In this document: piece by piece, positions 7,543 through 61,858 of the stretch
How positions within the stretch are numbered: the stretch's first letter is position 1
How the letters are laid out: every line of letters begins with the position of its first letter
From: Myxococcus stipitatus DSM 14675
GTDB lineage: Bacteria > Myxococcota > Myxococcia > Myxococcales > Myxococcaceae
Assembly (NCBI RefSeq): GCF_000331735.1
Contig: NC_020126.1
Span: 1,054,001 to 1,118,000 of the forward strand
Direction of reading: 5' to 3'
DNA length: 64,000 nt
Translations under genes and position numbers: made by a program
Notes under the pieces: generated by a model
The model's database searches: none
What the model was told of the DNA's origin: nothing
What the model saw: the letters and a program-made list of their open reading frames with translations, nothing else

Positions 7543-7544
7543 GC

Positions 7545-8423
7545 ATGCGCGCGCGAGTCTTCATCACCCTGGCCGCGGTGCTGGGAGCAAGCCTGGGCTG
7601 TGGTCCCGACTTCGAGCTGCAGAGCGAAATCCGGCGCGTGCGCGTGCTGGGCATCCGCGCGGAGCCTCCGGAGCTGGTGCTGAATCCAGACACGGGAGAG
7701 CTGCCGGGGCCGGTGTCGTTCAGTGCCTTGGCGGTGACGCCGGACGCGCGTCCCGTGACGGTGACGTATGCGCTGTGCAGGTTGGATGGGAATCCCTACG
7801 ACGGCCGGTGCCCTGGGGAGGCGGGGGTGGCGTTGCAGGGGGGCGTGTTGTCGTTGCAGGACCCGCAGGTGCAGGCGGTGCTGGCGCAGGCGCTGACGGC
7901 GGCGAATCCGAATGGAGGGCCGACGCCGGACCCGAATGACCCTCGGACGCGTGAGGCGTTGGAGAAGGGCATTCCGCTCTTCGTGGGGTACGAGGCGTCG
8001 GACGGCTCGGGCACGCCGGAGGGGGTGGAGCGCGGAATCCGGCAGGTGTTGGTTCGGTCGACGACGGCGCCGAATCACAACCCCGCGGTGGCGGACATCT
8101 TGTGGAACGACGCGCCGCTGGTGGGGCCGCTGCCGGTGGACGCGGAGGTGGTGTTCCGGCCGGTGCTCACGCAGGGCAGCGCGGAGGTGTACGCGGCGGA
8201 GGACGGGCCTCGCACCGAGCAGGTGTTCTACAGCTGGTTCGCGTCGGGGGATGGAGAGGTGAAGGAGTTCCGCTCGCAGGAGCCGGTGGATGGACGGCCC
8301 GGAGACCCCACGTCGAAGTACGAGACGCCGGACAAGGCGCAGCGAATCTCGGTCTGGGTGGTGGTGCGGGACGGGCGCGGGGGCGTGGGTTGGCTCCAGC
8401 GCGACGTGGACGTGGGGCCGTAG
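7545..8423 (+). CDS. Lipoprotein partner of the TonB-dependent receptor
   Basis: The 292-residue protein starts with a lipoprotein signal (GASLGC, Cys19). The mature part is beta-rich, with phrases such as VRVLGIRAEPPELVLNPDTGELPGP near the N-terminus and VWVVVRDGRGGVGWLQRDV at the end, suggestive of Ig-like strands. I do not recognise a named family. The ATG lies two bases after the receptor stop, so the genes are almost surely co-transcribed and probably translationally coupled. A surface-exposed or periplasmic accessory lipoprotein for the receptor is the natural inference, by analogy with lipoproteins that cap other receptors. The gene converges with the immunity-like gene that ends three bases downstream. 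Confidence 0.82.
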   Translation: MRARVFITLAAVLGASLGCGPDFELQSEIRRVRVLGIRAEPPELVLNPDTGELPGPVSFSALAVTPDARPVTVTYALCRLDGNPYDGRCPGEAGVALQGGVLSLQDPQVQAVLAQALTAANPNGGPTPDPNDPRTREALEKGIPLFVGYEASDGSGTPEGVERGIRQVLVRSTTAPNHNPAVADILWNDAPLVGPLPVDAEVVFRPVLTQGSAEVYAAEDGPRTEQVFYSWFASGDGEVKEFRSQEPVDGRPGDPTSKYETPDKAQRISVWVVVRDGRGGVGWLQRDVDVGP

Positions 8424-8426
8424 GGC

Positions 8427-8897
8427 TCAGGCTTCTTCGTCCGGGAGGAGCATGCGGAGCAGCTCGTCGTCGGGGCCGAGGGGGAGCCAGCCCGCGGGTG
8501 GAGGATTGGCACGGAGCACATCCTTGGCCCGCACGGCCTGCTCCCGATGTGTATCAGGGAGGACTTCCGACCACATTGCCAGTGCCTTGGCGACGTTGAA
8601 CCGGTTGTCGTCGTCCATGACCGCGGGCCAGCCATCGGGGAGGCAGTCCCACAGCTCGCGCACGAGCTGCCCACGTGCCAGCCGAGTGACCTGGTGGCTC
8701 CGCACGGCTTCTTCTACGAGCCCGTCGTAGATCTGGACGCCGGCGACATCGTCCGGGCCGAGCTCCTCCGCCAAGGCCACCAATGTTGCGGTGGGTCGTG
8801 CTTCCGCGAATGCGGTGACGGAGTCATAGCCTCGCTCGCGGACGCGCTCCGCCACACGCGCCTTCCAATTCCCTCGCCACGAACGCCCGTCGGTCAT
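8427..8897 (-). CDS. Putative immunity protein for the adjacent DUF2380-like toxin
   Basis: The 156-residue acidic, soluble protein has no signal peptide and no cysteines. Its start overlaps the stop of the toxin gene by ATGA (8894-8897), and GGAGGAG precedes it, so it is translationally coupled to the toxin. It has a helical look (WRGNWKARVAERVRERGYDSVTAF, then LAEELGPDDVAGVQ) and an acidic tail ending LLPDEEA. A small acidic cytoplasmic partner directly after a nuclease-type toxin is the standard arrangement for polymorphic toxin immunity genes. The immunity role is inferred from position and properties; I do not recognise the family with certainty. Confidence 0.7.
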   Translation of the reverse strand: MTDGRSWRGNWKARVAERVRERGYDSVTAFAEARPTATLVALAEELGPDDVAGVQIYDGLVEEAVRSHQVTRLARGQLVRELWDCLPDGWPAVMDDDNRFNVAKALAMWSEVLPDTHREQAVRAKDVLRANPPPAGWLPLGPDDELLRMLLPDEEA

Positions 8898-10180
8898 CGA
8901 CTCCTCCCTTTGGTGAATGTGAGTGGGATGTCGTTGAGTTTCATCCGCTGGCCGACGATGTCCAGCACCTGATTGCGCGTCAACCTCTGGCCAAGTTCGA
9001 CCTCGGCCTCGCGCAGGATCCTCATGATGGTCTGGTTCCATTCACCGGGCCACAGGCGCCCCAGCTTCCAGTTCCCGCCACCGTGAATGGCTTCATGGTG
9101 CGACTTTTCCAGTTTCACGCAGAACTGGTCGATGTCCATGGCACCCGTGAAGCCGCGCTGCTCGAACCACTCGCGATGCTCCTTGGGCAGGACGTGGTGC
9201 TTGGGAGCCTCGGCCATGCCCGCTCCCGCCTTGCCTGTCACGTGCATGCCCCGCACCTCGGGACTGTCTCCGAGGGCATCGCGCACCCCCTTGGGCAGGT
9301 CCTGATGGGCCTGGGCCATCAGCACCTGTCCTCCCTGGATGCGGATGGCCGCGCTGACGACGGGAACGGAGAGGACGCCCGCCTGCACGAGCCTGCGCAT
9401 CATCTCCACCCACTCGGCGGAGACCACGAGCCGCGAGCCCGTCATGACTCCACCCGAGCTCATCACGAACCCGACCCCCACTGTCGCGGGGGCGGCGGGA
9501 GGCAGCCTCGGCAAGGACATCTTCAACGTGGAGACCATGGCGACCAGCTCCAGTAACTGCGCCGCCGCGACGACCTTCGCCCCGACCTGCATGGCGGAGC
9601 GAGCCTCTGCGCTGATGGTGGCGAACTCACGGGTCAACGTCCCCATCAGCTCGGGCATCGCGGTCGCGGCGGCCTCGACTCGCTCCGGGTCCAGCGACGC
9701 GAGCTCCGCCAGCGCGGGCTTCATCAGCCCTTGGACGCGATGCAGGTCCGCGAACAGCTTCTCGGAGCCGCACGTGGGGCACTGGCGAAGCACTGCATCG
9801 CCGAGCTGAAGGAAGTCGGCCCAGGTGGTGAGCAACAGGCTCCCGAACAGGGCCGCCTGGAGTCTGGGGCCCGTCATGCGAAGCAGTCCCTGCTCCATGT
9901 CGGCGTCATCCACCGCCGAGGCCACGTCCGTCAGCGTGGTCGCGCCGCTCAAAGCACCACGAAGCCATCTCGACTGGTCCACTCCATGGTCGAGGTAGCG
10001 CGTGAACACACCCGTGAGTCCTCGTCCTCCAAACGCTGACGGCTGAGCCGCCAACCTGGAGAGCACGTCCCCCGAGTCATTCATCGAGGCGGTGACTTCC
10101 TCGATGGCCGCGAGGACCGCCAGTCGGGTCCCCGTGACTTCATCCCTGGAGCCAGACGCGCCAGGGCCCACATGCGTCAT
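8894..10180 (-). CDS. DUF2380-like polymorphic toxin with C-terminal HNH/AHH-type nuclease region
   Basis: The 428-residue protein has a helical N-terminal and middle part and a distinctive C-terminal domain. That domain contains KHHVLPKEHREWFEQRGF, then a Cys/His segment (FCVKLEKSHHEAIHGGGNW) and a PGEWN motif. The pattern matches what I remember of the myxobacterial DUF2380 family, thought to be HNH/endonuclease VII-like toxins. Likely catalytic residues are the paired histidines and the later HxxxH. The stop overlaps the start of the putative immunity gene. Frame continues upstream to a GTG at 10285, but that extension is richer in rare Arg codons and lacks a signal peptide. No lipobox is visible, unlike the SitA-like protein at 45963, so its route out of the cell is unclear. 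Confidence 0.75.
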   Translation of the reverse strand: MTHVGPGASGSRDEVTGTRLAVLAAIEEVTASMNDSGDVLSRLAAQPSAFGGRGLTGVFTRYLDHGVDQSRWLRGALSGATTLTDVASAVDDADMEQGLLRMTGPRLQAALFGSLLLTTWADFLQLGDAVLRQCPTCGSEKLFADLHRVQGLMKPALAELASLDPERVEAAATAMPELMGTLTREFATISAEARSAMQVGAKVVAAAQLLELVAMVSTLKMSLPRLPPAAPATVGVGFVMSSGGVMTGSRLVVSAEWVEMMRRLVQAGVLSVPVVSAAIRIQGGQVLMAQAHQDLPKGVRDALGDSPEVRGMHVTGKAGAGMAEAPKHHVLPKEHREWFEQRGFTGAMDIDQFCVKLEKSHHEAIHGGGNWKLGRLWPGEWNQTIMRILREAEVELGQRLTRNQVLDIVGQRMKLNDIPLTFTKGRSR

Positions 10181-14582: not shown

Positions 14583-15836
14583 TCAGCCCAAGGCGGCGGA
14601 GGCGCGACCGAGGCCCTCGGCGACGGAGGTGAAGGCGTCCGCGGTGCGCACGCGGTCCTCGCCGAAGCGCCGCACGTAGAGCTGTCGCACGGCGGGAATC
14701 TGCGAGGAGCCACCGGTGAGGAACACCGCGTCGATGTTCTGGGCCTCCGGGTGGCGCGAGAGCAGCCCTTCCGTGCACTGCTCCAGCTCGTCGAGCAGCG
14801 GCTTGCTGAACGCCTCGAACTCCTGGCGGGTGATGGGCTCGTGGAGGTTGATGCGCGCCTCCTCGAAGTCCACGGTGGCCACGTCCTCGCGGGACAGGCG
14901 GACCTTGGCCGCCTCGATGGCTCGGAAGAGGCGGTAGCCCAGGTTGTCCATCACCAGGTCGTGCAGGGCCTGGATTTCGGCCTGCTTGTCGCTGGTCTCC
15001 AGCATGGTCGCGAGCAGGTCCTGCGTGGACTTCTCGCGGATGAAGGACATCTCGTGCCAGGAGAGCAGCTTGGCCACGACGTGCTGGGGGATGGGCAGGC
15101 GCTTGTCGCTGAGACCTCGGACCCGGTAGGTGGAGCCGGCGCCGAAGCGGGGCAGCAGCTTGTGGCGCATGATTTCGGCGTCGAAGCGGTCACCGCCGAT
15201 GCGCACACCGGTGGAGCCCACGACGTCGGGGCGGCGGTCCTTGGCGCCTCGGTGCGAGGGGCCCAGGCGCATCAGCGTGAGGTCCGTGGTGCCGGCGCCG
15301 AAGTCGGCGACGAGGACGAGCTCATCGCGCTGGAGCTGGGCCTCGTAGGCGAGCGCGGCGGCGATGGGCTCGATGAGGAACTCGATGTGCTGGAAGCCGG
15401 CGAGCTCGGCGGCGCGGTGGAGGCGCTTCTGGGCGAGCGCGTCCGCTTCCGGGTCCGGGGTGAAGACGGCGGGGCGGCCCAGGATGACGGCTTCCGGGGG
15501 CGTGCCCAGGTGGACACCGGCGGCTTCGCGGACGCGGCGCAGGAGGATGGCGACCAGTTCCTCGATGGTGAAGGTGCGGCCTTTCACCTGGGTGGCGCGG
15601 AAGGAGGAGGAGTGGAGGAAGGACTTCACGGACTGGATGAAGCGTCCGGTGTTGTCCTCCATGTAGCGGTTGATGGCGTCGGCGCCTGTGTAGATTTCGC
15701 GCTCGTCGTCCGGGAAGAACATGACGGAGCGGTAGAGGCGCGGCTCCGCGGTGTGGGGTTGCAGGGACAGCACCGTGCCGTCGGGCAGGGCCGCCGCGGT
15801 GTTGCTGGTTCCGAAGTCGAGTCCGCAGGCGTGCAT
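14583..15836 (-). CDS. Hsp70-like ATPase (YegD-type)
   Basis: The 417-residue protein has the actin/Hsp70 nucleotide-binding fold: phosphate-1 motif LDFGTSNT at the N-terminus, phosphate-2 motif VADFGAGTTDL, and the adenosine motif FLTGGSSQIP. It lacks the substrate-binding and lid domains of DnaK, matching the shorter YegD-type group. It may therefore bind and hydrolyse ATP without classical chaperone activity. The start at 15836 puts the phosphate motif at residue 6; an in-frame ATG 45 bases upstream (15881) is possible. The frame stays open much farther into the neighbouring gene, but that extension is Cys/Ala-rich antisense of a repetitive gene. It is divergent from the Gln/Ala-rich lipoprotein gene. 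Confidence 0.9.
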   Translation of the reverse strand: MHACGLDFGTSNTAAALPDGTVLSLQPHTAEPRLYRSVMFFPDDEREIYTGADAINRYMEDNTGRFIQSVKSFLHSSSFRATQVKGRTFTIEELVAILLRRVREAAGVHLGTPPEAVILGRPAVFTPDPEADALAQKRLHRAAELAGFQHIEFLIEPIAAALAYEAQLQRDELVLVADFGAGTTDLTLMRLGPSHRGAKDRRPDVVGSTGVRIGGDRFDAEIMRHKLLPRFGAGSTYRVRGLSDKRLPIPQHVVAKLLSWHEMSFIREKSTQDLLATMLETSDKQAEIQALHDLVMDNLGYRLFRAIEAAKVRLSREDVATVDFEEARINLHEPITRQEFEAFSKPLLDELEQCTEGLLSRHPEAQNIDAVFLTGGSSQIPAVRQLYVRRFGEDRVRTADAFTSVAEGLGRASAALG

Positions 15837-16002
15837 GGGGGTGCGCCCCTTATCCCCAAAGCTCGGGAAAGGGTAGGGCATCGTGAGCGGGCCCGCCTGG
15901 TGGAGGACGGGCGGGGGCACGAACGCTCGGAGAGTGAATGAGGTGGTGGGGTCGGGTGGCGTCCCTTGTTCTCGTTCGGAAGGGCTACCCACAGGGGGCT
16001 TC

Positions 16003-17994
16003 ATGACATTTCGGACGAGAGCATGGGTGGTGGCGGGGGCCACCGCCGCGCTGCTCATCTCGGGTTGCCGCGAGCGAGGCCAGGACGCGAAGGCGCCGGC
16101 CGCGGCCCCGGACGAGCAACAGCAGCAAGTGGACAGTTCAAGGGATGCGGCGCGGCGGGAGCAGGAGGCACAGGCCCGCGAGCAGCAGGAGCCCGGCCAG
16201 GACCCGGCCGCACGGCAGGTTGCCCAGGCGCAGCAACAGCTCGTCCAGGCCCAGCAGCAGCAAGCGAGTGCGCGACAGCAAGCGACCGAAGCGGCGAAGC
16301 AGCCGGCCGTAGCGGGACAGCAAGCGACCGAAGCGGCGAAGCAGCCGGCGGTAGCGGGGCAGCAAGCGACCGAAGCGGCGAAGCAGCCGGCCGTAGCGGG
16401 ACAGCAAGCGACCGAAGCGGCGGAGCAGCCAGCAGCGGCAAGGCAGCAGGTCGCCGATGCGACGAAGCAGCCAGCGGAGGTGAAGCAGCAGGCCACCGAG
16501 GCGACGAAGCAGCCCGCAGGGGCGAAGCAGAAGGCCACCGAGGCGACAGGACAGTCAGGTGAAGCGCACCGGCCGTCGACTGGGGCGACGAAGCAGCCAG
16601 CGGAGGCGAAGCAGCAGGTCGCCGATGCAGCAGCACAGTCTGGCGCAGCGCAACCGCAGGCCTCCGATGGAGCGGCGCAGTCCGGGACCGCACGGCAGCA
16701 GTCCACTGGGGCGGGAGCGCAACCAGGGACAGCGCCGCAGCCATCGGCCGAAGCTTCAGCCCAGGCGGGTGCACCGCAGTCTCCCGAGTCCTCGCAGGAG
16801 GTGGGGAGTGCTTCGCCGCAAGGCGCACAGGCCAATCAGCCGCCCAAGAGCGCGAGCCAGCAGGCCGCTGAGGCCGCGCAACAGTCCGCGCGGGCAAGCC
16901 AGGGTGACGAGACTCCCCCGACATCCGAAATGGCACAGCAGAGTGCGCAGCCATCCCCGGAGTCGGGCCCGTCAGCCGAGACGGCACAGCAGCAGGACAC
17001 CGCCCAGGCCGCACAGGCGCCCGAGACAGCTCCGCGACAGCCCGGGCAGGAAACCCCGCCAGGGACAGAGGACGCGTCGCAACAAGTCACCCAGTCGCAA
17101 TCGAGCGCCTCCGCGGACGACGAGGAGCGCGACGCGGACACACAAGCCGAGCTTCGCGCTGAACGCGAGGCCGCGCTGCGAGCGGAGCAACGGGCTCGTC
17201 AGCAAGCCTCGCAGTCCGACTCGTCCCCCACCGGAGCGGAATCGCAACAGCCCGTGGCCTCCTCGCCAACGGACATGCAGTCGCAACAACAGGTGGCCTC
17301 CGCGCCAACCGTGACGGAGCCACCGTCGTGGCCGGGCTCCTCGTCACCCTCGACTTCCAGCACGGGGCAGCCCACGGAAGACGCCCCACAGGCGCTCTCT
17401 CCGCTGGAGCAGCTCGACTCCTGGCAACAGGGTGGGCAGGAGCAGCCATACACCGCCTCCTCACCCACGGACTCGACGGGAGCCACCACGCCTCGAGGGA
17501 CACAGGTCCCTCCGCAACAGCCCTTTGCCACCACCCCCTCGACGTCCGAGCAGCTGCCCACCCAGTGGGGAACAGGAACCTCCGGGACCTTCACCCAGCC
17601 AGGGTTCCAGTCACCGCTGGCCCTGCTCCCGTACCTCTCCTCGGACTCACAACAGGGGAGCGGCAGCACGACCTCCGAGACGCAGACCCAGACGCCTCAG
17701 CAGAACACGGTGCGGGAGTTCGTCGGCGAGCTGGTGAAGGCGAGCGAGAACGAAGTGCTGCTCGGCCAGAGTGGCGAAGCGCAGCTCCAATTGTCCGTGG
17801 ACCCGCAGACTCACGTCACGCTGAACGGCTTCAGCTCCGTCGCCGAGGACATCCGGGAAGGCACCCAGGTCCGTGCCGCCTACACCACGGACGCCACCAC
17901 GGGTCAGGGGCGCGCCGTCCGCCTCGAGGCGACGACGCAGGAGGACACCACCGGGACCAACGCGTCCCCCCAAGAAACGCAGCCCTCCCAGTAG
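16003..17994 (+). CDS. Gln/Ala/Ser-rich repetitive lipoprotein with C-terminal small beta-domain
   Basis: The 663-residue product starts with a lipoprotein signal (LLISGC, Cys22). Residues about 25-560 are low complexity: Gln, Ala, Pro, Ser, Thr and Glu dominate. They include a 14-residue unit of the type QQATEAAKQPAVAG repeated four times near residues 92-147, then decaying copies. A globular region of about 75 residues sits near the C-terminus (REFVGELVKASENEVLLG onward to GRAVRLEA) and looks like a small beta-barrel of the DUF5666 kind, though that is a tentative match. The long tail probably acts as a flexible spacer holding the beta-domain away from the membrane. The ATG at 16003 follows AGGGGG and places the signal peptide first. 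Confidence 0.82.
   Translation: MTFRTRAWVVAGATAALLISGCRERGQDAKAPAAAPDEQQQQVDSSRDAARREQEAQAREQQEPGQDPAARQVAQAQQQLVQAQQQQASARQQATEAAKQPAVAGQQATEAAKQPAVAGQQATEAAKQPAVAGQQATEAAEQPAAARQQVADATKQPAEVKQQATEATKQPAGAKQKATEATGQSGEAHRPSTGATKQPAEAKQQVADAAAQSGAAQPQASDGAAQSGTARQQSTGAGAQPGTAPQPSAEASAQAGAPQSPESSQEVGSASPQGAQANQPPKSASQQAAEAAQQSARASQGDETPPTSEMAQQSAQPSPESGPSAETAQQQDTAQAAQAPETAPRQPGQETPPGTEDASQQVTQSQSSASADDEERDADTQAELRAEREAALRAEQRARQQASQSDSSPTGAESQQPVASSPTDMQSQQQVASAPTVTEPPSWPGSSSPSTSSTGQPTEDAPQALSPLEQLDSWQQGGQEQPYTASSPTDSTGATTPRGTQVPPQQPFATTPSTSEQLPTQWGTGTSGTFTQPGFQSPLALLPYLSSDSQQGSGSTTSETQTQTPQQNTVREFVGELVKASENEVLLGQSGEAQLQLSVDPQTHVTLNGFSSVAEDIREGTQVRAAYTTDATTGQGRAVRLEATTQEDTTGTNASPQETQPSQ
16276..16443 (+). 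repeat. Four tandem 42-bp repeats inside the lipoprotein gene
   Basis: Units begin at 16276, 16318, 16360 and 16402 and each encodes 14 residues, so the array stays in frame. Units one to three are nearly identical; the fourth diverges in its second half, and degenerate related units follow to about 16640. The array is likely to vary in copy number between strains. Confidence 0.85.
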
Positions 17995-50729: not shown

Positions 50730-53700
50730 ATGCGAAAGTCCCCTCGCTTATGGTTGGCCGCGCTTGGCGCGGTGCTGTTGGTGCAATTTGGTTGCTCGGA
50801 CGACGACGGCAGGTGCGTCGGTGAGAAGTGCGGCCCCCCCGTCACCGCGGCGTGTGGAAACAACACGCAGGAGGAAGGGGAGCAGTGTGACGACGGCAAC
50901 CTGGTGGGGGGTGACGGGTGCGAGGCGGACTGCTCGACGACGCCCGTGCCGGAGAAGGCCGTCTGTGGCAACAACAAGGTCGAGGACGTCGAGGTCTGTG
51001 ACGACGGCAACACCGTGGACGGCGACGGCTGTCAGGCGGACTGCTCGCTGACGGTGACTCGCTGCGCGGCCGCGGAGGCGCCTGCCCTCCCGGATGGCGC
51101 GACGTGCGCGGTGACGAAGCCCGGCAATGGCGCGCGGCTGGTCACGGGCCTGGTGCTGATGGAGAAGCAGACGCTCGCGGGCGGGCAGGTGCTCGTGAAC
51201 GCGCAGGGTGTCATCACCTGTTCCGCATGTGATTGCTCCGCGGCCGAGGGCGCCGCCGAGGCCACCCACGTGTCGTGCCCGACGGGTGTCATCTCCCCGG
51301 GCCTCATCAACGCGCATGACCACGTCAACTACCGGTCGCCGCCGCTCGCCTCGTCGGATGAGCGCTACGAGCAGCGCCTGGACTGGCACCATGGCCTGCG
51401 CAACCACACGGAGCTCAACAACAGCAGCGCGGCGGGCGTGGATGCGGTGAGCTTCGCGGAGCTGCGCCACCTGATGGCGGGCACCACGTCCATCGCGGGC
51501 GCGGGGTCGGGCGGCTCCGCGGGCCTCCTGCGCAACCTGGACATCGTGCTGGTGAGCCGGCAGGAGGGCCCGGACCTGTGGCCGGTCGTCTCCAGCCTCT
51601 ACCCGCTGGGCGACCTGGAGACGGACACCTACGCGGAGGGCTGCGGCTACTCCTTCCTGCCGCGGACGTCGAGCCTGCCTCGCTACGCCGCGTACCTGCC
51701 GCACATCGCCGAGGGCATCAACAAGGAGGCCTTCAACGAGTTCCGCTGTGTGTCGGCGGGCGGCAACGACGTGCTGATGCCGCGCACGGCGGTGGTGCAG
51801 GGCATCGCGCTGACGGCGCGGGAGATCTCACAGATGGCGGACCGGGGCACGGGCCTCGTGTGGACGCCGCGCTCCAACGTCGCGCTGTATGGCGACACGG
51901 CCATGCTGCCCGTCTTCAAGCGGATGGGCGTGAGCGTGGCGCTGAGCACGGAGTGGCTCCAGTCCGGCTCCATGAACATGCTGCGCGAGCTGAAGTGCGC
52001 GGACGCGCTCAACTCGACGTACTTCTTCCGGGCCTACAGCGACCAGGAGCTCTGGCGCATGACGACGGCCAACGCGGCGGAGGCGCTGAACGCGCAGAGC
52101 CGCCTGGGCCGCATCGCCCCGGGGATGCTGGGGGACCTGGCGGTCTTCTCGCTGCGCACGTTCGCGAAGTCCCCGCACCGCGCGGTCATCACCGCCGAGC
52201 CCGGCGACGTCGTGCTGTCGATGCGCGGCGGCAAGGCGCTCTACGGTGACCGGACGCTGGTGGAGGCCCTCAAGGGCACCACGGAGGCCTGCGACACCGT
52301 GGACGTGTGCGGCAAGCCCAAGTCGGCCTGCCTCCAGTCGGAGCTGGGCAAGGCGCTGGCGGCGCTGCAGACCGCCAATGCCACCGCCTATCCGCTGTTC
52401 GCCTGCGGCGTCCCGGAAGGGGAGCCCGTGTGCCAGCCCCGGCGCATCGCGAACGAGCCGAAGTGGCCCGCGTCCGTGACGGGCTCCAACGTCTACTCGG
52501 GCGAGACCCGCGCGGACGACCGGGATGGCGACGGGCTCAAGGGCCGCGCCGACAACTGCCCGTTCGTCTTCAACCCCATCCGTCCCATGGACGGTGGCAA
52601 GCAGGCCGACTCGGATGGCGACGGCGTGGGCGACGCGTGCGACGTGTGCCCGCTGGCGGCGAACTCCACCTCGTGCGCGCCGAAGGCCGTGGGGGATGAC
52701 GACTTCGATGGCATCCCGACGTGGCAGGACAACTGCCCGTTCGTGGCCAACGCCGACCAGGCGGACCGGGACGGCGACGGCAAGGGCGATGTGTGCGACG
52801 CGTGCGACGTGGCGAACCCCGGCAACCTGGGCTGCCCCTCCACCATCCACGCGCTGAAGACGCCCGATGGCGACCGCCTGCCCCTGGAGGGCAAGGAGGT
52901 GGCGCTCACCGACGCCATCGTCACGGGCGTGGTGAAGGGCACGTCGACGAACGAGGGCTACTGGCTCCAGGTGCACCCGCTGCCGTCGGGGACGAGCGTG
53001 GAGCACTCGGGCATCTACGTGTACTCGCCCAAGGCGGACCTGGCGGTGGGCGACCGGGTGGACATCACCACGGGCGTGCTGACCGTCTACAACGGCCTGC
53101 CGGAGCTGGTGGACGTGAAGTACTCCAAGCGCAGCAGCAAGAACGCGCTGCCCGCGCCGGTGGTGGTCACCTCGGCGGATGTCCGCACGGGGGGACCCAG
53201 GGCCGCGGCGCTGGAGGGTGTGCTGGTCGAGGTGCGCGACGTGGTCGTCAACACCGCCGCGGACCGGTTCATCCAGTTCCTGGTCAACGAGAGCGGTGAC
53301 CCGGGGCAGCCGTCGCTGATGGTGGACGACTTCTCCTACTCGTACGACCCGCCGGTGGTGGGCACGCGCTACGGCTCGCTGCGCGGCGTGCTGACCTACA
53401 ACTTCAGCGACTCCAAGGTCGTGCCCCGCAGCATCGCGGACCTGGCGCCGCCGCTGCCGTCGCTGACGGGCTTCGGCCCTGGCGGCTTCGTCCGCATGGG
53501 CGGCGCGGGCCCCGTCAGCACCTTCCCGCAGGCCCTGACGCTGACGTTGTCGGGCCCGTACACGGAAGCGCTGGACGTCTTCATCACCTCGAGCAACAGC
53601 AGCGCGCTGCGCGTGCCCAACGGCGTGGTGACGGTGCCCAAGGGCCAGAGCTCCGTGGAGGTGAAGGTGGAGCCCCTGGCGTCCGCGGCGAGCGTGACGC

Positions 53701-55262
53701 TCACCGCGACGCTGCGAGCCACCTCGCTCCAGTCCTCGTTCCGCGTGCTGGGCGCGGCGGAGGAGCCGGCGGTGGTCGGCGTGACGCCTTCCGACGTGAC
53801 GGTGGTGCCGGGCGGCACCGTGTCCTTCACGGTGGAGCTGGACCGCCCCGCTCCCGCGAATGCCACGGTGGCGCTGAGCGTGAATCCGGCGGCGGGCTTC
53901 GGCACGCTGACGCCCGCCAACGGCGTGCTGCCGGTGGCGCTGAACGCGACGCAGGCGTCGTTCTCGCTCACGGTCGACGAAGCGGCCGTGGGGCCCACGG
54001 GCACGGTGAGCGCTGGCATCGGCTCGAGCGGCGCCACCGCCACGGTGACGCTGGACCTGACGGCGCCGAGGCTCGCGACGCTGACTCCGGACGCGCCGGT
54101 GACGGTGGGCTACGGGCAGACGCAGGAGTTCCGCGTGACGCTGTCCTCGGCGCCCACGGAGGATGTCTCCGTGACGCTGGCCGCCACGCCGGCCACGGGC
54201 GTCACCCACTTCGGCACGGTGCCGGCGACGGTGACGGTGCCCGCGGGGGCGACGGAGGCCACGTTCCACTTCACCGCGGATGCGCAGGGGGATGGCGCGG
54301 GCACGGTGTCCGCGTCGCTGCTCGGGGTGCGTCGGAGCACGAACGTCACGGTGACGCCGCCGCCGCCGAAGCTCGCGTCCATCTCTCCCGAGCGTCGCAC
54401 GGTGTACTTCGGGACCCTCCAGGCCTTCACGATGACGCTGGACCGCAGGGCTCCCGCGGGCGGCGTGGTCATCGCGCTGGAGCTGGCTCCCGCCACGGGA
54501 CTGGGGACGCTGCCCTCCGCCACGGTGACGGTGCCGGAAGGCGCGACGCAGGTGCAGGTCAGCTTCACGGCGGGGACCACGGCGAGCACGGGCACGCTGT
54601 CCGCGACGTATGCCGGCGTGACGAAGGTGGCGGAAATCACCACCGAGGAGCGCCCGGCCACCGGCCACCTGGTCGTCAACGAGTTCGACTACGACCCGGT
54701 GGGCACGGACTCGACCGTGCTCAAGGAGTTCGTGGAGATCTACAACTCGACCGCCAACCCCGTCTCCCTGTCGGGGGTGTTCATCGTCCTCATCAACGGC
54801 AATGGCGCCCAGCCGACGAGCTACGACAGGTACGACCTGACCGACCTCCAGGTCCTGGAGCCGGGTGAGTACCTGGTGCTGGGCCACCCGAACGTGGTGG
54901 ACCCGCTCCGAGGCCAGACGGGCGTCAAGGTGATGGAGCTGCCCGTCGGCAAGGCCATCCAGAACGGCGGCACTCCGGTGGGAGATGCCATCGCCATCTA
55001 CGACAGCACCCAGAACGTCCTGCTGGACTCGGTCTCCTACACGGGGTCCGTCTCGAGCGCGACCATCCAGTGGGATGCCGGGACGCCGGTGCGCGGGCCG
55101 TTCAACTTCGTGGAAGGCCCTCGGAGCCCGACGGGGCTGGCGGACGCGAACCTGCAGGGCTCGCTGGGCCGCAAGCCGGACAGCTCGGACACGAACGACA
55201 ACGTGGATGACTTCCAGTTCTCCCCCACGCTCACGCCGGGTCGGCAGAACGTCCTGCCCTAG
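50730..55262 (+). CDS. Giant surface lipoprotein: Cys-rich repeats, amidohydrolase, TSP3, OB, Ig-like and lamin-tail domains
   Basis: The 1510-residue protein is a predicted lipoprotein (Cys22 in VQFGC). Two DUF4215-like Cys-rich repeats follow (about 42-110: [32 protein letters not shown]). An amidohydrolase-like domain (about 125-515) has metal motif His196-x-His198 in NAHDHVN, but Gln in VVQGIAL and Glu in STEWLQSGS stand where many relatives have His and Asp. Thrombospondin type 3-like Asp repeats cover about 595-695, an OB-like DNA-binding-type fold about 708-905, several Ig-like/beta-sandwich units about 907-1310, and a lamin-tail domain about 1311-1510. It is surely extracellular. The substrate is unknown, and the altered metal residues leave activity open. 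Confidence 0.85.
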
Positions 55263-55366: not shown

Positions 55367-56626
55367 TCACGCCAGCAGCGTCACCTTGACGATTTCCGGC
55401 CCGGTGCCGACGCGAAGAGGCGGGCCCCAGAAGCCCGTCCCCTGGCTGACGTAGATGTGCTGGCCGTTCTCCTCGTAGTGCCCCGCCTTGTGTTCCCACA
55501 TGGCGGACACCACGAGCGTGAAGGGGAAGAACTGTCCCGCGTGCGTATGTCCGGACAGCTGCAACCCCATGCCCGCTTGCGCCGCCACGCGCCAGTTGGC
55601 GGGCTGGTGCGCGAGCAGCACCGCGGCCCGGTCCCGCTGTCGCCCGAGGACGGCCGCCTCCAGGTCATAGCCCCGACCGGGGCCCATGCCCTTCGCCGCC
55701 CAGTCGTCCACGCCCACCAGGTCGAACGAGGCCGCCGAGTCACCCACGCGCACGTGCCGGTTGCGCAGCACCTGCACGCCCATGCCCTCCAGCGCCTCCG
55801 CCCACGTGTTCGCGTTCCAGTAGTACTCGTGGTTGCCCGTGACGAAGTACGTCCCGTCCCGGGTGCGCAGCTCCCGCAGCGCCGCCACCGAGGGGCCCAG
55901 CTCCGGCACGTTCCCGTCGACGAGGTCACCGGTGATGGCCACCAGGTCCGGGTGCAGCGCGTTGCACCGCGCCACCAGCTCGTCCATGAAGCGGCGCCGG
56001 ATGAGCGGGCCCACGTGGATGTCGCTCAGGTGGACGATGGTGTAGCCATCCAGCTCCCGAGGCAGCCCCGGAAGCCGCACCGCCACCTCGTTCACCACCG
56101 GCGGATGGAACGCGTTCCAGGCCCCGTAGCCCGACAGCCCTCCCGCCGCGAGCGCCGCACCACCCGCCGAGACGCGCGCCAGGAAGCGCCGCCGCTCCAC
56201 GTTCACCTCGGGCACCTCGGCAGGCGCCGCGAGCACGGCGGCGGCGGGCACCGTCCCCGCGCCACTCACGGCCATCACACCGGGCTCCGCGGAGACGACC
56301 GCGGCCTTCAGGCGTCGCAAGCGCCGCATCGCCAGGCGCCCCCCGCCGATGAGCCACAAGGCGAAGAGCAGGTAGAGCGAGATGCCCATCCACATCCACA
56401 CGACGGTGGCGACCTTGAACGTGAAGTCCATCGGCAGCACGCGCGTCAGGGTGAAGGACAACAGCAGCAGGGTGCACAGCACCGCCATCGCGCCCATTCC
56501 CACAAGGCGCCACATGCGGTTCTCCGAGGTGTCCGAGAACAGGCGCCGGTACAGGTAGATGTGGACTCCCACGATGGGTCCACTCGTGAGGACCACGAAG
56601 ACGACGAAACGCACCCATGAGTTCAT
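55367..56626 (-). CDS. Membrane-anchored metallophosphoesterase (YkuE/YaeI-like)
   Basis: The 419-residue protein has three N-terminal membrane helices (VRFVVFVVLTSGPIVG, LVGMGAMAVLCTLLLL, VVWMWMGISLYLLFALWLI). A linker follows with an Arg-rich hydrophobic segment (RRRFLARVSAGGAALAAGGLSG) that resembles a Tat-type or membrane anchor. The C-terminal calcineurin-like phosphoesterase domain has all metal motifs: DIHVGPLI, GDLVDG, GNHEYY and GHTHAGQ. Relatives hydrolyse phosphodiesters, in some cases lipid-linked. The start at 56626 precedes the first helix; frame is open far upstream but is antisense to the RCC1 gene. It is divergent from that gene across 210 bases. Confidence 0.9.
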   Translation of the reverse strand: MNSWVRFVVFVVLTSGPIVGVHIYLYRRLFSDTSENRMWRLVGMGAMAVLCTLLLLSFTLTRVLPMDFTFKVATVVWMWMGISLYLLFALWLIGGGRLAMRRLRRLKAAVVSAEPGVMAVSGAGTVPAAAVLAAPAEVPEVNVERRRFLARVSAGGAALAAGGLSGYGAWNAFHPPVVNEVAVRLPGLPRELDGYTIVHLSDIHVGPLIRRRFMDELVARCNALHPDLVAITGDLVDGNVPELGPSVAALRELRTRDGTYFVTGNHEYYWNANTWAEALEGMGVQVLRNRHVRVGDSAASFDLVGVDDWAAKGMGPGRGYDLEAAVLGRQRDRAAVLLAHQPANWRVAAQAGMGLQLSGHTHAGQFFPFTLVVSAMWEHKAGHYEENGQHIYVSQGTGFWGPPLRVGTGPEIVKVTLLA

Positions 56627-56836
56627 GTCCACCCCATCCTTGCCGACTGTCGCCGCGTCGCAATGCCTTCCGCGTGAAGAAACGTGAAACGCGCTCGCGG
56701 ATGGCGGTGGCTCGGGTTCTCGTGGCGGGGTCCTTCTCTCGCGGTGGCCACTCAGGGCGACGCCGCGTGCTCCCAGGCTTCTCATTCGCCAGGGAGACGA
56801 GTATGGACGGCCGCTTTCCCGTGCTGGAGGCAAGTG

Positions 56837-59800
56837 ATGCGGAAGGACAACGTGATGGCGAGGCCGGGCTTCGCACAGGTCTTGGTGCTGAGCGTCTGGC
56901 TCGTCATGGGGTGTGAAGGCACCTCGAGCCCCGCGGAACCGTCCCACCCTCCGGCTGCTCGCTCCCAGGCCCTCGCGTCCGCGACGTCGAAGGTCGCCGC
57001 GGGTGCGCAGCACTCGCTCTATGTCACGCAGGCCGGCACGGTGTGGGCATGGGGCGGCAATGGCTCCGGACAGCTGGGCACCGGAAGTGTGTCGTTCCAG
57101 CGCGTCGTCGCCCAGCAGGTGCCGGGGCTGACGGACGTCACGAGCATCGCCGCGGGGGATGCCCACTCGCTCGCGCTGCGCGCGGACCGGACGGTGTGGA
57201 CGTGGGGAGGCAACAACGCGGGCCAGGTGGGGGATGGCACCAACGTCGACCGCCCCACGCCGCAGAAGGTGCCGGGGCTCTCCGACGTCGTCGCCGTCGC
57301 GGCGGGGGAGTTCCATTCGCTGGCGCTGCGCGCCGATGGCACCGTGTGGGCCTGGGGCAGCAACTTCTATGGCCAGCTCGGACGTGGCCACTCGCAGCCG
57401 GGTCCTTCTCCCGCGCAGGTCGTGGGCCTGACGGGCGTGGTGGCGCTCGCGGCGGGCTTCGACTTCTCGCTCGCTGTGCGCTCGGACGGCACCGTGTGGG
57501 CGTGGGGCGCCAACGGCTCCGGACAGCTCGGCGATGGGACCTACATCCAGCGCCTGGCGCCCACGCAGGTGTCCCAGCTCCAGGGGGTCTCCGCCGTGAC
57601 GGCGGGCCTCTATCACGCGCTCGCGCTGCGCTCGGATGGAACGGTGTGGGCCTGGGGTTCCAATTCCTCCGGGCAGATGGGCGATGGGACGTGGACGGAC
57701 CGCCCCTCGCCGGTGCAGGTCACCTCCATCGCGCGAGCAAAGGCCGTGGCCGCGCAGGACGCGGGCTCGCTGGTGTTGCTCGATGACGGCGGCGTGTTCG
57801 CCTGGGGGCTCAACTCGCAGGGGCAGCTGGGGATTGGCACCACGGCGGACAGCCCGCTCCCCGTGCGCGTGCGGGGGCTGGGGGCGGTGACGTCGCTGGC
57901 GGCGGGGACGCAGCACGCGGTGGTGCTGCGCGCCGACGGCACGCTGTGGACGTGGGGCCACGGCGCGACGGGCCAGCTGGGACACGGCAGCTCCGAGCGG
58001 ATGCTCTCGCCGGAGGTCGTCACGCGCTTGTCGAACGTCGCCTCGGTCGCGTCGGGCAGCTTCCACTCGGTGGCCGCGCTGTCGGACGGCTCGGTGTGGA
58101 CGTGGGGGCGCAACACCAATGGCCAGCTGGGTGATGGCACCACCACCGAGCGCCACTTGCCCGTGCGCGTGCCGGGGCTCTCCGGCGTGGTCTCCGTGAG
58201 CGCGTCGGGACATCACTCGTTCGCGCTGCGCTCGGATGGGACGGTGTGGGGCTGGGGCCGCAACGCGCAGGGGCAGATGGGGGACGGCACGACGAAGGAC
58301 CGCGCCTCGCCCGCGCGCGTGGAGGGCTTGAGCAGCGTGAAGGCGCTGGCCTCGGGCGGCAGCCACATGGTGGCGCTGCGCACGGACGGCACCGTGTGGA
58401 CGTGGGGCTACAACGGCGCGGGGCAGCTCGGGGATGGCACCACGACCGACCGCCGCGCGCCCGTGCAGGTGACCGGCCTGTCGGGAGTGACGTCCGTGGC
58501 CGCGGGCGCCTACTTCTCGCTGGCGCTGCGCACCGACGGCACCGTGTGGGCCTGGGGTGATGGCTTCGAGGGACAGCTGGGAGATGGCGCGGGTGTGCAG
58601 CGCGCGTCGCCGGTCCAGGTGACGGGGCTGACGCGCGTGGTGAAGCTGGCCGCGGGCGCCGCGCATGGCCTGGCCGTGCGGGATGACGGCACCGTGTGGG
58701 CCTGGGGTGACAACACGGAAGGGCAGATGGGAGACGGCTCGTGGTCCGACCGGTTCCGCGCCGTGCAGGTCTACGGCCTGACGGGGGTGTCCTCCGTCGT
58801 CGGCGGGCTGTACCACTCCATGGCCCTGGCTCAGGACGGGACGCTGCGCGCCTGGGGCGGCAACGCGTATGGACAGTTCGGTGATGGAGGGGTCACGCCT
58901 CGGGTCGTGGCGGGCGCGGTGCCCGGCCTCTCCGGCATCAAGCTGTTGGGCGCCAGCTACCTGCACGTGCTCGCCGTGCGCGAGGACGGCATGCTGCTGA
59001 CGTGGGGTTACAACCGCTTCGGGCAGCTCGGCCTGGGCGCGGCGGGGTGGAGCTCGCTGCCGGTGCAGGTGCGAGGACTGGGGCAGGGGCGCAGGCTCTC
59101 CGCGGGGCGTGCGCACTCGCTGCTCGTGCGCGCGGACGGCACCGTGCTCGCGTGGGGACAGAACACCTCCGGTCAGCTCGGGGATGGCTCGACGACCCAT
59201 CGCGCCTCACCGGTCCTCGCGCGCAACCTGCCGTGCGCGCGCGCGGCGTCGGCGGGCCGACAGCACTCGCTGGTGCTCGCGTGTGATGGAACGGTGTGGT
59301 CGTGGGGTGGGAACAGCCAGGGCCAGCTGGGCGATGGCGGCGTCACGTCGCGCGCGTATCCCGCGAAGGTGGAGGGCCTGTGGGGCGTGGTGGCCGTGCT
59401 GGCGGGAGGAGACTCCTCGATGGTGCTGCGCGCGGACGGCACGGTGTGGACGTGGGGCGCGAACGGCAGCGGGCAGCTCGGTGACGGCACGCTGGGAGAC
59501 CGTGCCTCGCCCCTGGAGGTGAAGGGTTTGGCCGGCATCGCCACCGGGGTGATGGGCGAAGCGCATGCGCTCGTCGTGAGCCAGGACGGCACGGTGTGGG
59601 CCTGGGGCGCGAACGGCCGAGGACAGCTCGGGGATGGCACCACCACCTCCAGCGCGTCGCCCGTGCGTGTGGCGGGGTTGTCCGCCGCGATGAACGTGAG
59701 CGTCGGACAGGCGTACTCCCTCGCGGTGCTCCCCGATGGGACGGTGTGGAGCTGGGGCGCGAATGACAGCGGGCAGCTCGGTGATGGCACCAACGTGGCG

Positions 59801-61192
59801 CGCACCACGCCCAAGCCCGTGCAGGACCTGGCCGACGTCAAGGCGGTGACCGCGGGCGCGCACCACGTCGTGGCGGTGCGGCATGACGGGACGGTGTGGG
59901 GCTGGGGCGCCAACGCCTTCGGACAGGTGGGCGATGGGACCCACTTCTGGCGCTTCCGCCCCGTGCGCGTGGAGGGTCTCCTCAACGCGGTGGAGACGTC
60001 GGCGGGAGAGCAGCACTCGCTGGCGCTGCTGGGGGACGAGCGCGCGCTCTCCTGGGGCAGCCACGAGTACGGCCAGCTGGGTGACGCGGAGTCGGGACCG
60101 AGCCTGGAGCCCGTGGGCGTGAAGCTGCCGAGCTCGAAGGTGCTGGTGCCCGCCGTCTCCGTGAGCGCGTGGCATCAGCACGCGGCGGCGCTGCTCGCGG
60201 ACGGCACGGTGCAGACGTGGGGTGGCAACGCGGACGGGCAGCTCGGGGATGGCACCACGGAGAGCCGGGCCACGCCCATCACCGTGGCGGGCCTGGGGGC
60301 GATGGTGGCCGTGGCCCCGGCCGCGCGGCACACGCTGGCGCTGCGCTCCGACGGCACCGTGTGGGCGTGGGGCGACAACACCTTCGGGCAGCTGGGGGAC
60401 GGCTCCAACACGCGGCGCACGCTCCCGGTCCAGGTGGTGGGGCTGGAGAAGGTGACGGCCATCGCCGCGGGCAGCTACCACTCGCTGGCGGTGCGCGAGG
60501 ACGGCACGGTGTGGGCCTGGGGCTACAACGTCTTCGGCCAGCTCGGCGACGGGACGATGGACGCGCGCGCCGTGCCCACGCGCATGCTGGGGCTGGACGG
60601 CGCGGTGGCGGTGGCCGGCGGTGAGTACCACTCGCTGATGCTGCGCTTCGACGGGACGCTGTGGGCCACCGGCAACAACTCCCACGGCCAGCTGGGCGAG
60701 GGCACCTTCACCAATCGCTTGTCACCCTTCCAGGTGGTGGAGCTGGACCAGGTGCGGACGGTGCGCGCGGGGGGCTATCACTCCGTCGCGCTGCGCGAGG
60801 ACGGAACCGTCTGGACGTGGGGCCACAACGGCCAGGGCCAGCTGGGAGATGGCACGGTGACGACGCGGCGGGTGCCCGCGCCGGTGCCCGGACTGACGGC
60901 CATCGCGTCCGTGGGCGCCGGGACTTCGCACACCTTCGCGGTGGGCTCGGAGACCTGGGCGTGGGGACGCAACTCGCACGGGCAGCTGGGCACGGGGGAC
61001 AGCTCCGACCGGCTGGAGCCGACCCTGGTGAAGGGGCTGCACGGCGTGAAGAGCGTGCTGGCGGGCGGGGACTTCTCGGTGGCCCAGGGCGCGGATGGCA
61101 GCGCGATGAGCTGGGGCACCAACGTCCATGGCACCCTGGGCATCGGCCTCCCGGGCCAGCGCACCGTGCCGGGGGCCGTGACGCTGCCCTGA
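56837..61192 (+). CDS. RCC1-repeat lipoprotein with 28 repeats
   Basis: The 1451-residue protein is a predicted lipoprotein (LVMGC, Cys26). After a Ser/Ala/Pro linker the rest is made of RCC1-type repeats of about 50 residues, each with the motif G-T-V-W-x-W-G-x-N-x-x-G-Q-L-G-D-G-T. I count 28, from GTVWAWGGNGSGQLG to GSAMSWGTNVHGTLG. RCC1 repeats form seven-bladed beta-propellers, so the number suggests four propellers in a row. In bacteria these proteins are usually secreted or surface-bound and used in binding. No enzyme domain or metal site is visible. The ATG at 56837 follows GGAGG and starts the signal peptide; the upstream open frame is not supported. Confidence 0.92.
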   Translation: MRKDNVMARPGFAQVLVLSVWLVMGCEGTSSPAEPSHPPAARSQALASATSKVAAGAQHSLYVTQAGTVWAWGGNGSGQLGTGSVSFQRVVAQQVPGLTDVTSIAAGDAHSLALRADRTVWTWGGNNAGQVGDGTNVDRPTPQKVPGLSDVVAVAAGEFHSLALRADGTVWAWGSNFYGQLGRGHSQPGPSPAQVVGLTGVVALAAGFDFSLAVRSDGTVWAWGANGSGQLGDGTYIQRLAPTQVSQLQGVSAVTAGLYHALALRSDGTVWAWGSNSSGQMGDGTWTDRPSPVQVTSIARAKAVAAQDAGSLVLLDDGGVFAWGLNSQGQLGIGTTADSPLPVRVRGLGAVTSLAAGTQHAVVLRADGTLWTWGHGATGQLGHGSSERMLSPEVVTRLSNVASVASGSFHSVAALSDGSVWTWGRNTNGQLGDGTTTERHLPVRVPGLSGVVSVSASGHHSFALRSDGTVWGWGRNAQGQMGDGTTKDRASPARVEGLSSVKALASGGSHMVALRTDGTVWTWGYNGAGQLGDGTTTDRRAPVQVTGLSGVTSVAAGAYFSLALRTDGTVWAWGDGFEGQLGDGAGVQRASPVQVTGLTRVVKLAAGAAHGLAVRDDGTVWAWGDNTEGQMGDGSWSDRFRAVQVYGLTGVSSVVGGLYHSMALAQDGTLRAWGGNAYGQFGDGGVTPRVVAGAVPGLSGIKLLGASYLHVLAVREDGMLLTWGYNRFGQLGLGAAGWSSLPVQVRGLGQGRRLSAGRAHSLLVRADGTVLAWGQNTSGQLGDGSTTHRASPVLARNLPCARAASAGRQHSLVLACDGTVWSWGGNSQGQLGDGGVTSRAYPAKVEGLWGVVAVLAGGDSSMVLRADGTVWTWGANGSGQLGDGTLGDRASPLEVKGLAGIATGVMGEAHALVVSQDGTVWAWGANGRGQLGDGTTTSSASPVRVAGLSAAMNVSVGQAYSLAVLPDGTVWSWGANDSGQLGDGTNVARTTPKPVQDLADVKAVTAGAHHVVAVRHDGTVWGWGANAFGQVGDGTHFWRFRPVRVEGLLNAVETSAGEQHSLALLGDERALSWGSHEYGQLGDAESGPSLEPVGVKLPSSKVLVPAVSVSAWHQHAAALLADGTVQTWGGNADGQLGDGTTESRATPITVAGLGAMVAVAPAARHTLALRSDGTVWAWGDNTFGQLGDGSNTRRTLPVQVVGLEKVTAIAAGSYHSLAVREDGTVWAWGYNVFGQLGDGTMDARAVPTRMLGLDGAVAVAGGEYHSLMLRFDGTLWATGNNSHGQLGEGTFTNRLSPFQVVELDQVRTVRAGGYHSVALREDGTVWTWGHNGQGQLGDGTVTTRRVPAPVPGLTAIASVGAGTSHTFAVGSETWAWGRNSHGQLGTGDSSDRLEPTLVKGLHGVKSVLAGGDFSVAQGADGSAMSWGTNVHGTLGIGLPGQRTVPGAVTLP

Positions 61193-61198
61193 GGAAGA

Positions 61199-61223
61199 AG
61201 CCCGGGGCGCGGCGCTCCGGGCT
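61199..61223. terminator. Bidirectional hairpin after the RCC1 gene
   Basis: AGCCCGG (61199-61205) pairs with CCGGGCT (61217-61223), extended inward by three pairs including one G-T, around a five-base loop. It lies between convergent genes, seven bases after the RCC1 stop. Confidence 0.6.
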
Positions 61224-61234
61224 CTCCGCCGTGA

Positions 61235-61858
61235 CTACGGCTTGCGCGGGCTCACGGCCGGCGCGGAGAGCTCGGAGCCAATCTGCCGCCACTCCTGCGC
61301 GTAGGCGCCTCGGGTGAAGGCGCGCAGGTCCTCGCTCGTCACGGCGCCTCGCGCCAGCGCGGTGTCCAGTGCGCGGACGACGGCGGCGCGGTGCGGCTGC
61401 TCGACGTAGGGGTTGCCCTCGCGGAACACCTCGCCGAAGAGCGACTCCAGGCGGCCGTCCTGCTTCAGCCGCTCGACGATGCGCGTCTGCGACATGGGCT
61501 CGTCCGCGTGGGCGTGGAGCATGGCGGAGGCCATCCCCCCCTGCGCGTCGGCGTCGGGGAACTCGGAGAGCAGCTCCAGCTCCGCGTCCGCTCCGGCGAT
61601 GGCCCGGGCGTGTGCCTCCGCGGCGAGCGACGTCAGCGCACCGCTCAGGTCCGGCGTGCCGCGCGGAGGTGTCCGGCGGTCCGGCTCGAAGTCGCTGCGT
61701 CCCTGAAACGGGCTCACCGCACGAGCTGTCGGGAGGTCCTTCTTTCCCGGGACTTGCTGGGCGCTCTTGGAGGCGGAGTCCGGCCGCTCCGTGCTGGAGC
61801 GCTCCGTGGAGGAGCCCTTCGGCGGGGACGTGCGGTTTCCACCATCAATGCGCGACAT
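61235..61858 (-). CDS. Hypothetical protein with disordered N-terminus
   Basis: The 207-residue protein has no signal peptide. Its first about 75 residues are rich in Ser, Thr, Pro, Arg and Lys (MSRIDGGNRTSPPKGSSTER) and look disordered. The rest is helical, with ALTSLAAEAHARAIAGADAELELLSEF and RIVERLKQDGRLESLFGEVFREGN. I recognise no family. The ATG at 61858 follows GGAG; frame open to 62053 overlaps the end of the esterase gene and is unlikely. It converges with the RCC1 gene across a hairpin and is 103 bases downstream of the esterase gene on the same strand, so co-transcription is uncertain. Confidence 0.65.
   Translation of the reverse strand: MSRIDGGNRTSPPKGSSTERSSTERPDSASKSAQQVPGKKDLPTARAVSPFQGRSDFEPDRRTPPRGTPDLSGALTSLAAEAHARAIAGADAELELLSEFPDADAQGGMASAMLHAHADEPMSQTRIVERLKQDGRLESLFGEVFREGNPYVEQPHRAAVVRALDTALARGAVTSEDLRAFTRGAYAQEWRQIGSELSAPAVSPRKP

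Follow-up and report, generated by a model that had tools for sequence, protein, structure and literature searches.

A predicted chain of four RCC1 propellers on a lipid anchor in Myxococcus stipitatus and repeat numbers that count in sevens

RESULTS AND DISCUSSION

A lipoprotein of 28 RCC1 repeats

We analyzed a stretch of 64,000 nucleotides from Myxococcus stipitatus DSM 14675 (contig NC_020126.1, positions 1,054,001 to 1,118,000 of the forward strand; hereafter, the window), in which a plus-strand gene at 56837-61192 encodes a lipoprotein of 1451 residues built from RCC1 repeats. The reading that we favor, at a probability of roughly 0.62, is a lipid-anchored envelope protein whose 28 repeats form four seven-bladed propellers (repeats 1-7, 8-14, 15-21, and 22-28) and which probably serves as a docking scaffold. 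Short linkers would join the four propellers in a row, and the likeliest role of the protein, at the outer membrane and on outer-membrane vesicles, would be that of a receptor or of a docking scaffold with several sites. The RCC1 fold is already known; the point of interest is the counting in sevens.

The frame opens with an ATG at 56837 and runs uninterrupted to a stop codon that ends at 61192. Its first codons (56837-56914) encode a predicted signal peptide and lipobox, LVMGC, with the cysteine codon at 56912-56914; these are the features by which bacterial lipoproteins are recognized, and they point to a lipid anchor. In the 27 genomes of the genus that we searched, the window's own included, an equivalent cysteine is readable in 26 of the 27 orthologs (one of them by eye), and the remaining ortholog is cut at its N terminus by the end of its contig. 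From residue 47 to the C terminus, the protein consists exclusively of RCC1 repeats, exactly 28 of them, in an array that runs in phase with both ends of the chain. The repeat motifs are spaced by 50 residues, except between repeats 1 and 2 (51 residues), 21 and 22 (55 residues), and 26 and 27 (48 residues).

The Pfam profile PF00415 scores 967 bits (E = 1.4e-299), against a curated cut-off of 21.7, and 26 stretches pass individually, which places the protein in the RCC1 family. A Pfam scan at E values up to 0.01 returned RCC1-type families only, with no enzymatic domain and no HECT domain. The motif count, the PF00415 match, and the lipobox thus bear out the first-pass annotation, which had described this frame as a lipoprotein of 28 RCC1 repeats. 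Its remark that several repeats are close variants holds only loosely, as pairwise identity among the repeats ranges from 28 to 65% with a mean of 46% (378 pairs) and Tandem Repeats Finder reported no array over the gene. A scan of 56500-61400 for sigma-70-type promoters and terminators found none.

From the repeat table and the period-seven divergence reported below, all on the plus strand, predicted ring 1 (repeats 1-7, residues 47-397) lies at 56975-58027, ring 2 (repeats 8-14, residues 398-747) at 58028-59077, ring 3 (repeats 15-21, residues 748-1102, with repeat 21 longer by 5 residues) at 59078-60142, and ring 4 (repeats 22-28, residues 1103-1451) at 60143-61189.

Divergence among the repeats has a period of seven

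Among periods of 2 to 12, seven alone is significant in the divergence of individual repeats (F = 9.5, p = 0.0002). Repeats 7, 14, 21, and 28 have the lowest group mean of identity, their mean identities to the other repeats being 42, 40, 37, and 38%, respectively, compared with group means of 48-50% for ring positions 2-5. The period persists when the two end repeats are left out. It is also found when the window protein is scored with a profile made from 2428 repeats of other proteins, its own excluded (p = 0.0016), and in the ortholog mean scored with a profile that excludes the window protein (p = 0.0003). The latter value comes from 23 of the 27 orthologs, namely those with exactly 28 hits at the threshold, where two further 28-repeat orthologs gave 29. 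The array has a single long interval, of 54-56 residues, which follows repeat 21 in all 27 orthologs.

Repeat counts and ring edges among relatives

The frames whose repeats we counted came from three sources: 79 named loci retrieved with the window protein, ten paralog loci of the same genome, and 40 chosen stretches of other genomes of the genus. Frames with at least 4 repeats numbered 165; 18 of them run off their stretch and were dropped, and all but two of the remaining 147 have seven repeats or more (145 frames). A two-round profile count gave a multiple of seven in 127 of these 145 complete frames (34 with 7, 56 with 14, 34 with 21, and 3 with 28), in a sample whose named loci were selected by similarity to the window protein and are therefore biased toward long, regular proteins. 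With redundancy removed at 60% identity, the proportion is 78 of 95. All 11 frames read in this genome, the window's included, have counts in sevens, as do 46 of 46 paralogs in the genus; filling gaps lowers the latter number to 45. Among the frames from the named loci, 70 of 88 count in sevens, or 71 once gaps are filled. A preceding one-round count, made without the genus stretches, found multiples of seven in 73 of 97 frames (78 with gaps filled), against 4 for multiples of five, 3-4 for six, 4 for eight, and 3 for nine. The record titles of loci with counts in sevens cover several phyla.

The boundaries of the sevens carry a signature of their own in a set of 61 other non-redundant frames whose counts are multiples of seven and no lower than 14. 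With chain ends excluded, phases 7 and 1 have the lowest profile scores (-7.9 and -6.5 bits, versus +7.3 at phase 3), a pattern that none of 2000 random rotations reached. Intervals that follow phase 7 are longer, by a mean of 23 residues, and 33% of them deviate by 3 or more, versus 12-14% elsewhere.

These results are consistent with a mechanism in which an incomplete ring cannot close, so that repeat number would be held at multiples of seven by selection on closure. We lean, a little less firmly than toward the architecture itself, toward the view that such selection makes bacterial RCC1 genes grow and shrink by whole rings of seven repeats. The window protein would then represent a four-ring class with 28 blades that predate the diversification of the genus, four separately conserved binding faces, and one lipid anchor. 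Pereira and Lupas describe blade amplification that lacks a counting system, with new propellers converging on a preferred number (PMC9218822). The RCC1 survey makes such convergence visible in tandem form, as 7, 14, 21, and 28. Ring architecture would thereby be readable from genomes, and the edge signature can serve as a guide to ring boundaries in a case where structure prediction failed to place them. The mechanism predicts that losing one blade should be worse than losing seven.

We found no report of RCC1 counts in sevens in bacteria in the literature titles and abstracts searched, nor in the available portions of PMC3797127 and PMC4750278, and the rule may already be in print. For Haliangium, the accessible text of PMC3035250 counts RCC1-type genes, not repeats.

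Two further observations came from the survey. A second 28-repeat protein, apart from that genome's ortholog of the window gene, lies at 5114-9622 of locus L180 (genome G016). Four loci (L044, L069, L075, and L088) hold frames of 43 to 56 RCC1 repeats, three of which run off their stretch. The repeats of L044 come in runs of about seven, followed by gaps of about 138 residues.

Orthologs and the history of the rings

The gene is present in all 27 genomes of the genus, at 60-100% identity, and 25 of the 27 orthologs have 28 repeats; of the other two, a draft copy has 27, and a copy cut by its contig shows 26. In 69 genomes of the same family but outside the genus, single matches with E values of 1e-100 or below span at most about 640 of the protein's 1451 residues, which leaves room for piecewise relatives.

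The first-pass annotation had proposed that the array expanded by duplication of whole propellers. We see no recent event of this kind: identity is not raised at lags of 7, 14, or 21 repeats, and a nearest-ring search over 129 rings of the genus found the closest ring within the same protein only 9 times. The nearest ring belonged to the same ordinal class (first, middle, or last) in 107 of the 129 cases, a count inflated by orthologs. Since the nearest ring is rarely in the same protein and mostly in the same ordinal class, the rings look like old modules copied along with the whole gene. We therefore set aside recent whole-propeller duplication inside the protein, which neither lag identity, ring-to-ring register, nor the nearest-ring searches support beyond a weak lag-seven signal in the ortholog profiles (p = 0.003, and p = 0.095 without edge blades).

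Blade-specific positions and the probable function

Five positions of the repeat (11, 12, 28, 31, and 41) are as variable from blade to blade as any other, yet are conserved across 25 orthologs. Their mean ortholog entropy is 0.94 bits, versus 1.60 at seven other equally variable positions. When ring 2 is aligned with the plant UV-B receptor UVR8, positions 11-12 correspond to W and R in the GWRHT motifs. As described in PMC4501546, these motifs supply the chromophore tryptophans of UVR8 and arginines that are key to its dimer. We infer that the five positions lie on one face of each ring, where 11 and 12 would occupy the UVR8 chromophore and dimer site. Each ring might then hold a dedicated partner, and the pattern agrees with four dedicated faces for docking that evolve under moderate constraint. 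For myxobacteria, this would indicate a conserved surface or vesicle scaffold.

Weighing the reading against its alternatives

Several observations weigh against the reading of four docking rings. With regard to function, the ratio of nonsynonymous to synonymous substitution rates (dN/dS) is 0.16-0.22 versus the three closest orthologs compared, which favors the reading, but rises to 0.35-0.43 versus three more distant ones; therefore, we regard the constraint as moderate. The five positions were chosen after seeing the data, and the associated p value of 3e-13 is descriptive only.

The gene could be suspected of encoding a fast-changing surface adhesin, or a prey- or kin-binding protein caught in an arms race, given that it is a predicted lipoprotein, that a likely ortholog occurs in the vesicles of a predatory relative (see below), and that dN/dS reaches 0.43 at the larger distances. 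We consider this unlikely, as the gene is kept in every genus genome searched and there is less change at the conserved variable positions than at the other variable ones. The binding of prey, matrix, or kin surfaces that the first-pass annotation had suggested would be a conjecture; the conserved, blade-specific residues suggest dedicated docking, which they favor over fast-changing prey binding. These residues also speak against a structural or inert vesicle protein that has no specific ligand. This second possibility draws on the lack of an enzymatic domain in the Pfam scan and of a known partner, and we judge it improbable.

As for the architecture, the period of seven lies in the divergence of the repeats and not in their raw identity. 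Protein identity at lags 7, 14, and 21 is 46.5, 46.6, and 47.4%, versus about 46.2% in shuffled arrays (combined p = 0.23), and lag 7 alone, at 46.5% versus an expected 46.2%, gives a permutation p of 0.42. The 150-bp repeat is the sole raw period; the dot plot that the first-pass annotation had proposed as a check for a seven-repeat period thus counts against its claim by its own standard. The conservation of each blade across orthologs has no significant period of seven (F = 1.8, p = 0.15). In the pooled ring-edge test, the F value for period 8 is also high (13.0, versus 15.5 for period 7). Eighteen of the 145 complete frames break the rule of seven. Some of these resemble a repeat missed in a long gap, such as three frames of 13 repeats in L097 with a gap of 138-144 residues, and L110 resembles a frame split into 10 and 4 repeats (both by eye); L063 (15 repeats), L072 (13 repeats), and L070 (11 repeats) have no such explanation. 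The 27-repeat ortholog, L146 in genome G021 (a draft of about 1010 contigs), is missing exactly one repeat of ring 4, through either an assembly collapse or a true loss.

Structure prediction adds to these points. We ran two AlphaFold jobs on constructs that were deliberately out of phase, model A with repeats 1-23 and model B with repeats 6-28. The predicted template modeling score is 0.42 for both, and the mean predicted local distance difference test score (pLDDT) is 77.0 for model A and 81.3 for model B. The two differ in register: model A groups repeats 3-9, whereas model B groups repeats 7-13 and leaves repeat 14 disordered, so that both depart from the grouping proposed for ring 2 and model A also departs from that of ring 1. 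The homologs in the model alignments are out of register and skip blades 14 and 21.

In model A, repeats 3-9 form a ring that matches UVR8 (6xzl) with a Z score of 56.4 at model residues 101-451. Its second match, from 468 to 852, is to human RCC1 (Z = 43.1, 341 residues aligned), and we read it as repeats 10-17 minus 14. Blades 1-2 and 18-23 fall outside most of the listed fold matches, and the breaks of this model coincide with those of the misaligned homologs. In model B, repeats 7-13, 15-21, and 22-28 are well predicted, with repeat 6, repeat 14, and the junction of 21 and 22 below a pLDDT of 50. UVR8 aligns to predicted ring 4 at model residues 801-1154, that is, residues 1098-1451 of the protein (Z = 54.2, root-mean-square deviation [rmsd] 1.6), to ring 3 at model residues 450-787, or protein residues 747-1084 (Z = 52.4, rmsd 1.6), and to repeats 7-13 at model residues 50-404 (Z = 45.7, rmsd about 2.6). 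All matched rings are seven-bladed in both models (UVR8 Z scores of 46-56), and repeats 3-9, 15-21, and 22-28 fit the whole UVR8 propeller with an rmsd of 1.3-2.0, as expected of predicted seven-bladed RCC1-type propellers.

Because the models disagree, their alignments are misregistered, and the constructs were out of phase, we dropped AlphaFold as a judge of register. We therefore take the blade number from the models and the register from the sequence tests. The structure prediction proposed by the first-pass annotation accordingly returned rings of seven blades as anticipated, with disagreement over which seven.

Seven-bladed rings might instead sit in a shifted register, for instance at 3-9 or 7-13, with blades left unpaired and the number 28 meaningless. 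The predicted rings at just these repeats, together with the low confidence of blade 14 in both models, lend this some color, but the misregistered alignments that skip blades 14 and 21 and the out-of-phase constructs undercut it, the sevens in the divergence line up with the chain ends, and counts in sevens leave no spare blades; we regard it as quite improbable. An oligomeric or larger assembly, with a single ring or rings of another blade number, is very improbable: blade number does vary in other propeller lineages, for which PMC9218822 describes closely related proteins of 3, 4, 6, and 9 blades and a single one of 47, but the counts in sevens, the longer intervals after each seventh repeat, and the seven-bladed matched rings of the models all argue against it.

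The reading of four seven-bladed propellers on a lipid-anchored chain, which the first-pass annotation had also put forward, is thus probably right, resting on the period-seven divergence, the repeat counts of relatives, the longer linkers, and the seven-bladed rings of the models; the rings would be closed.

Relation to known propellers

UVR8, which is likewise seven-bladed, is the best solved relative in both sequence (E = 2e-55) and fold (Z = 46-56 for each matched ring). UVR8 is a plant photoreceptor with one ring, whereas the window protein has four predicted rings and a lipid anchor, and none of its 28 repeats has a Trp-Arg pair at positions 11-12. Domains 1, 2, and 3 of HERC2 and domain 3 of HERC1 are among the fold matches, and HERC proteins likewise hold several RCC1 rings. 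Those rings are set apart within very large ubiquitin ligases. HERC-type ligases carry a HECT domain beside their RCC1-like domains; the window protein, with contiguous predicted rings and no HECT domain in the Pfam scan, is not of this type. BLIP-II, a beta-lactamase inhibitor, is likewise a bacterial, secreted, RCC1-type propeller (Z of about 30). It binds protein through one smaller ring of about 270 residues, and its likeness to the window protein is a match of predicted fold alone. RCC1 proper is the guanine-nucleotide exchange factor of Ran, and bacteria are not expected to have Ran.

Neighboring genes and cellular location

Upstream of the RCC1 gene, the window encodes a lipoprotein of 1510 residues with Pfam matches to amidohydrolase, LTD, TSP_3, and DUF4215 (50730-55262, plus strand) and a divergent metallophosphoesterase (Pfam Metallophos; 55367-56626, minus strand). 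In the 20 neighborhoods read, which include the window's own and some of which are cut by the end of the stretch, the first lies beside the RCC1 gene in 16 and the second in 18, with several partial matches. The genes downstream of the RCC1 gene are kept in fewer neighborhoods than either of these.

The gene order offers a link to published vesicle data. In M. xanthus, PMC4158809 reports the RCC1 repeat protein MXAN_0889 in vesicle samples and not in membrane samples, which makes it vesicle-specific there, and the metal-dependent amidohydrolase MXAN_0886 in over 65-fold excess in vesicles. The amidohydrolase stands three numbers earlier, as in the neighborhoods here. In the genus genome represented by L207, the order is amidohydrolase, a regulator-like frame (by eye), metallophosphoesterase, and RCC1 gene. 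Since this order fits the numbering of MXAN_0886 and MXAN_0889, we infer from gene order and numbering that MXAN_0889 is the likely ortholog of the window gene.

Elsewhere in the window, a Hsp70-like protein, recognized by eye, is encoded on the minus strand at 14583-16835. A plus-strand frame at 15883-17994 encodes a putative lipoprotein rich in Ala, Gln, and Lys, with a 42-bp tandem repeat at 16270-16618; the region from 16 to 18 kb that holds this repeat has an AT skew of 0.435.

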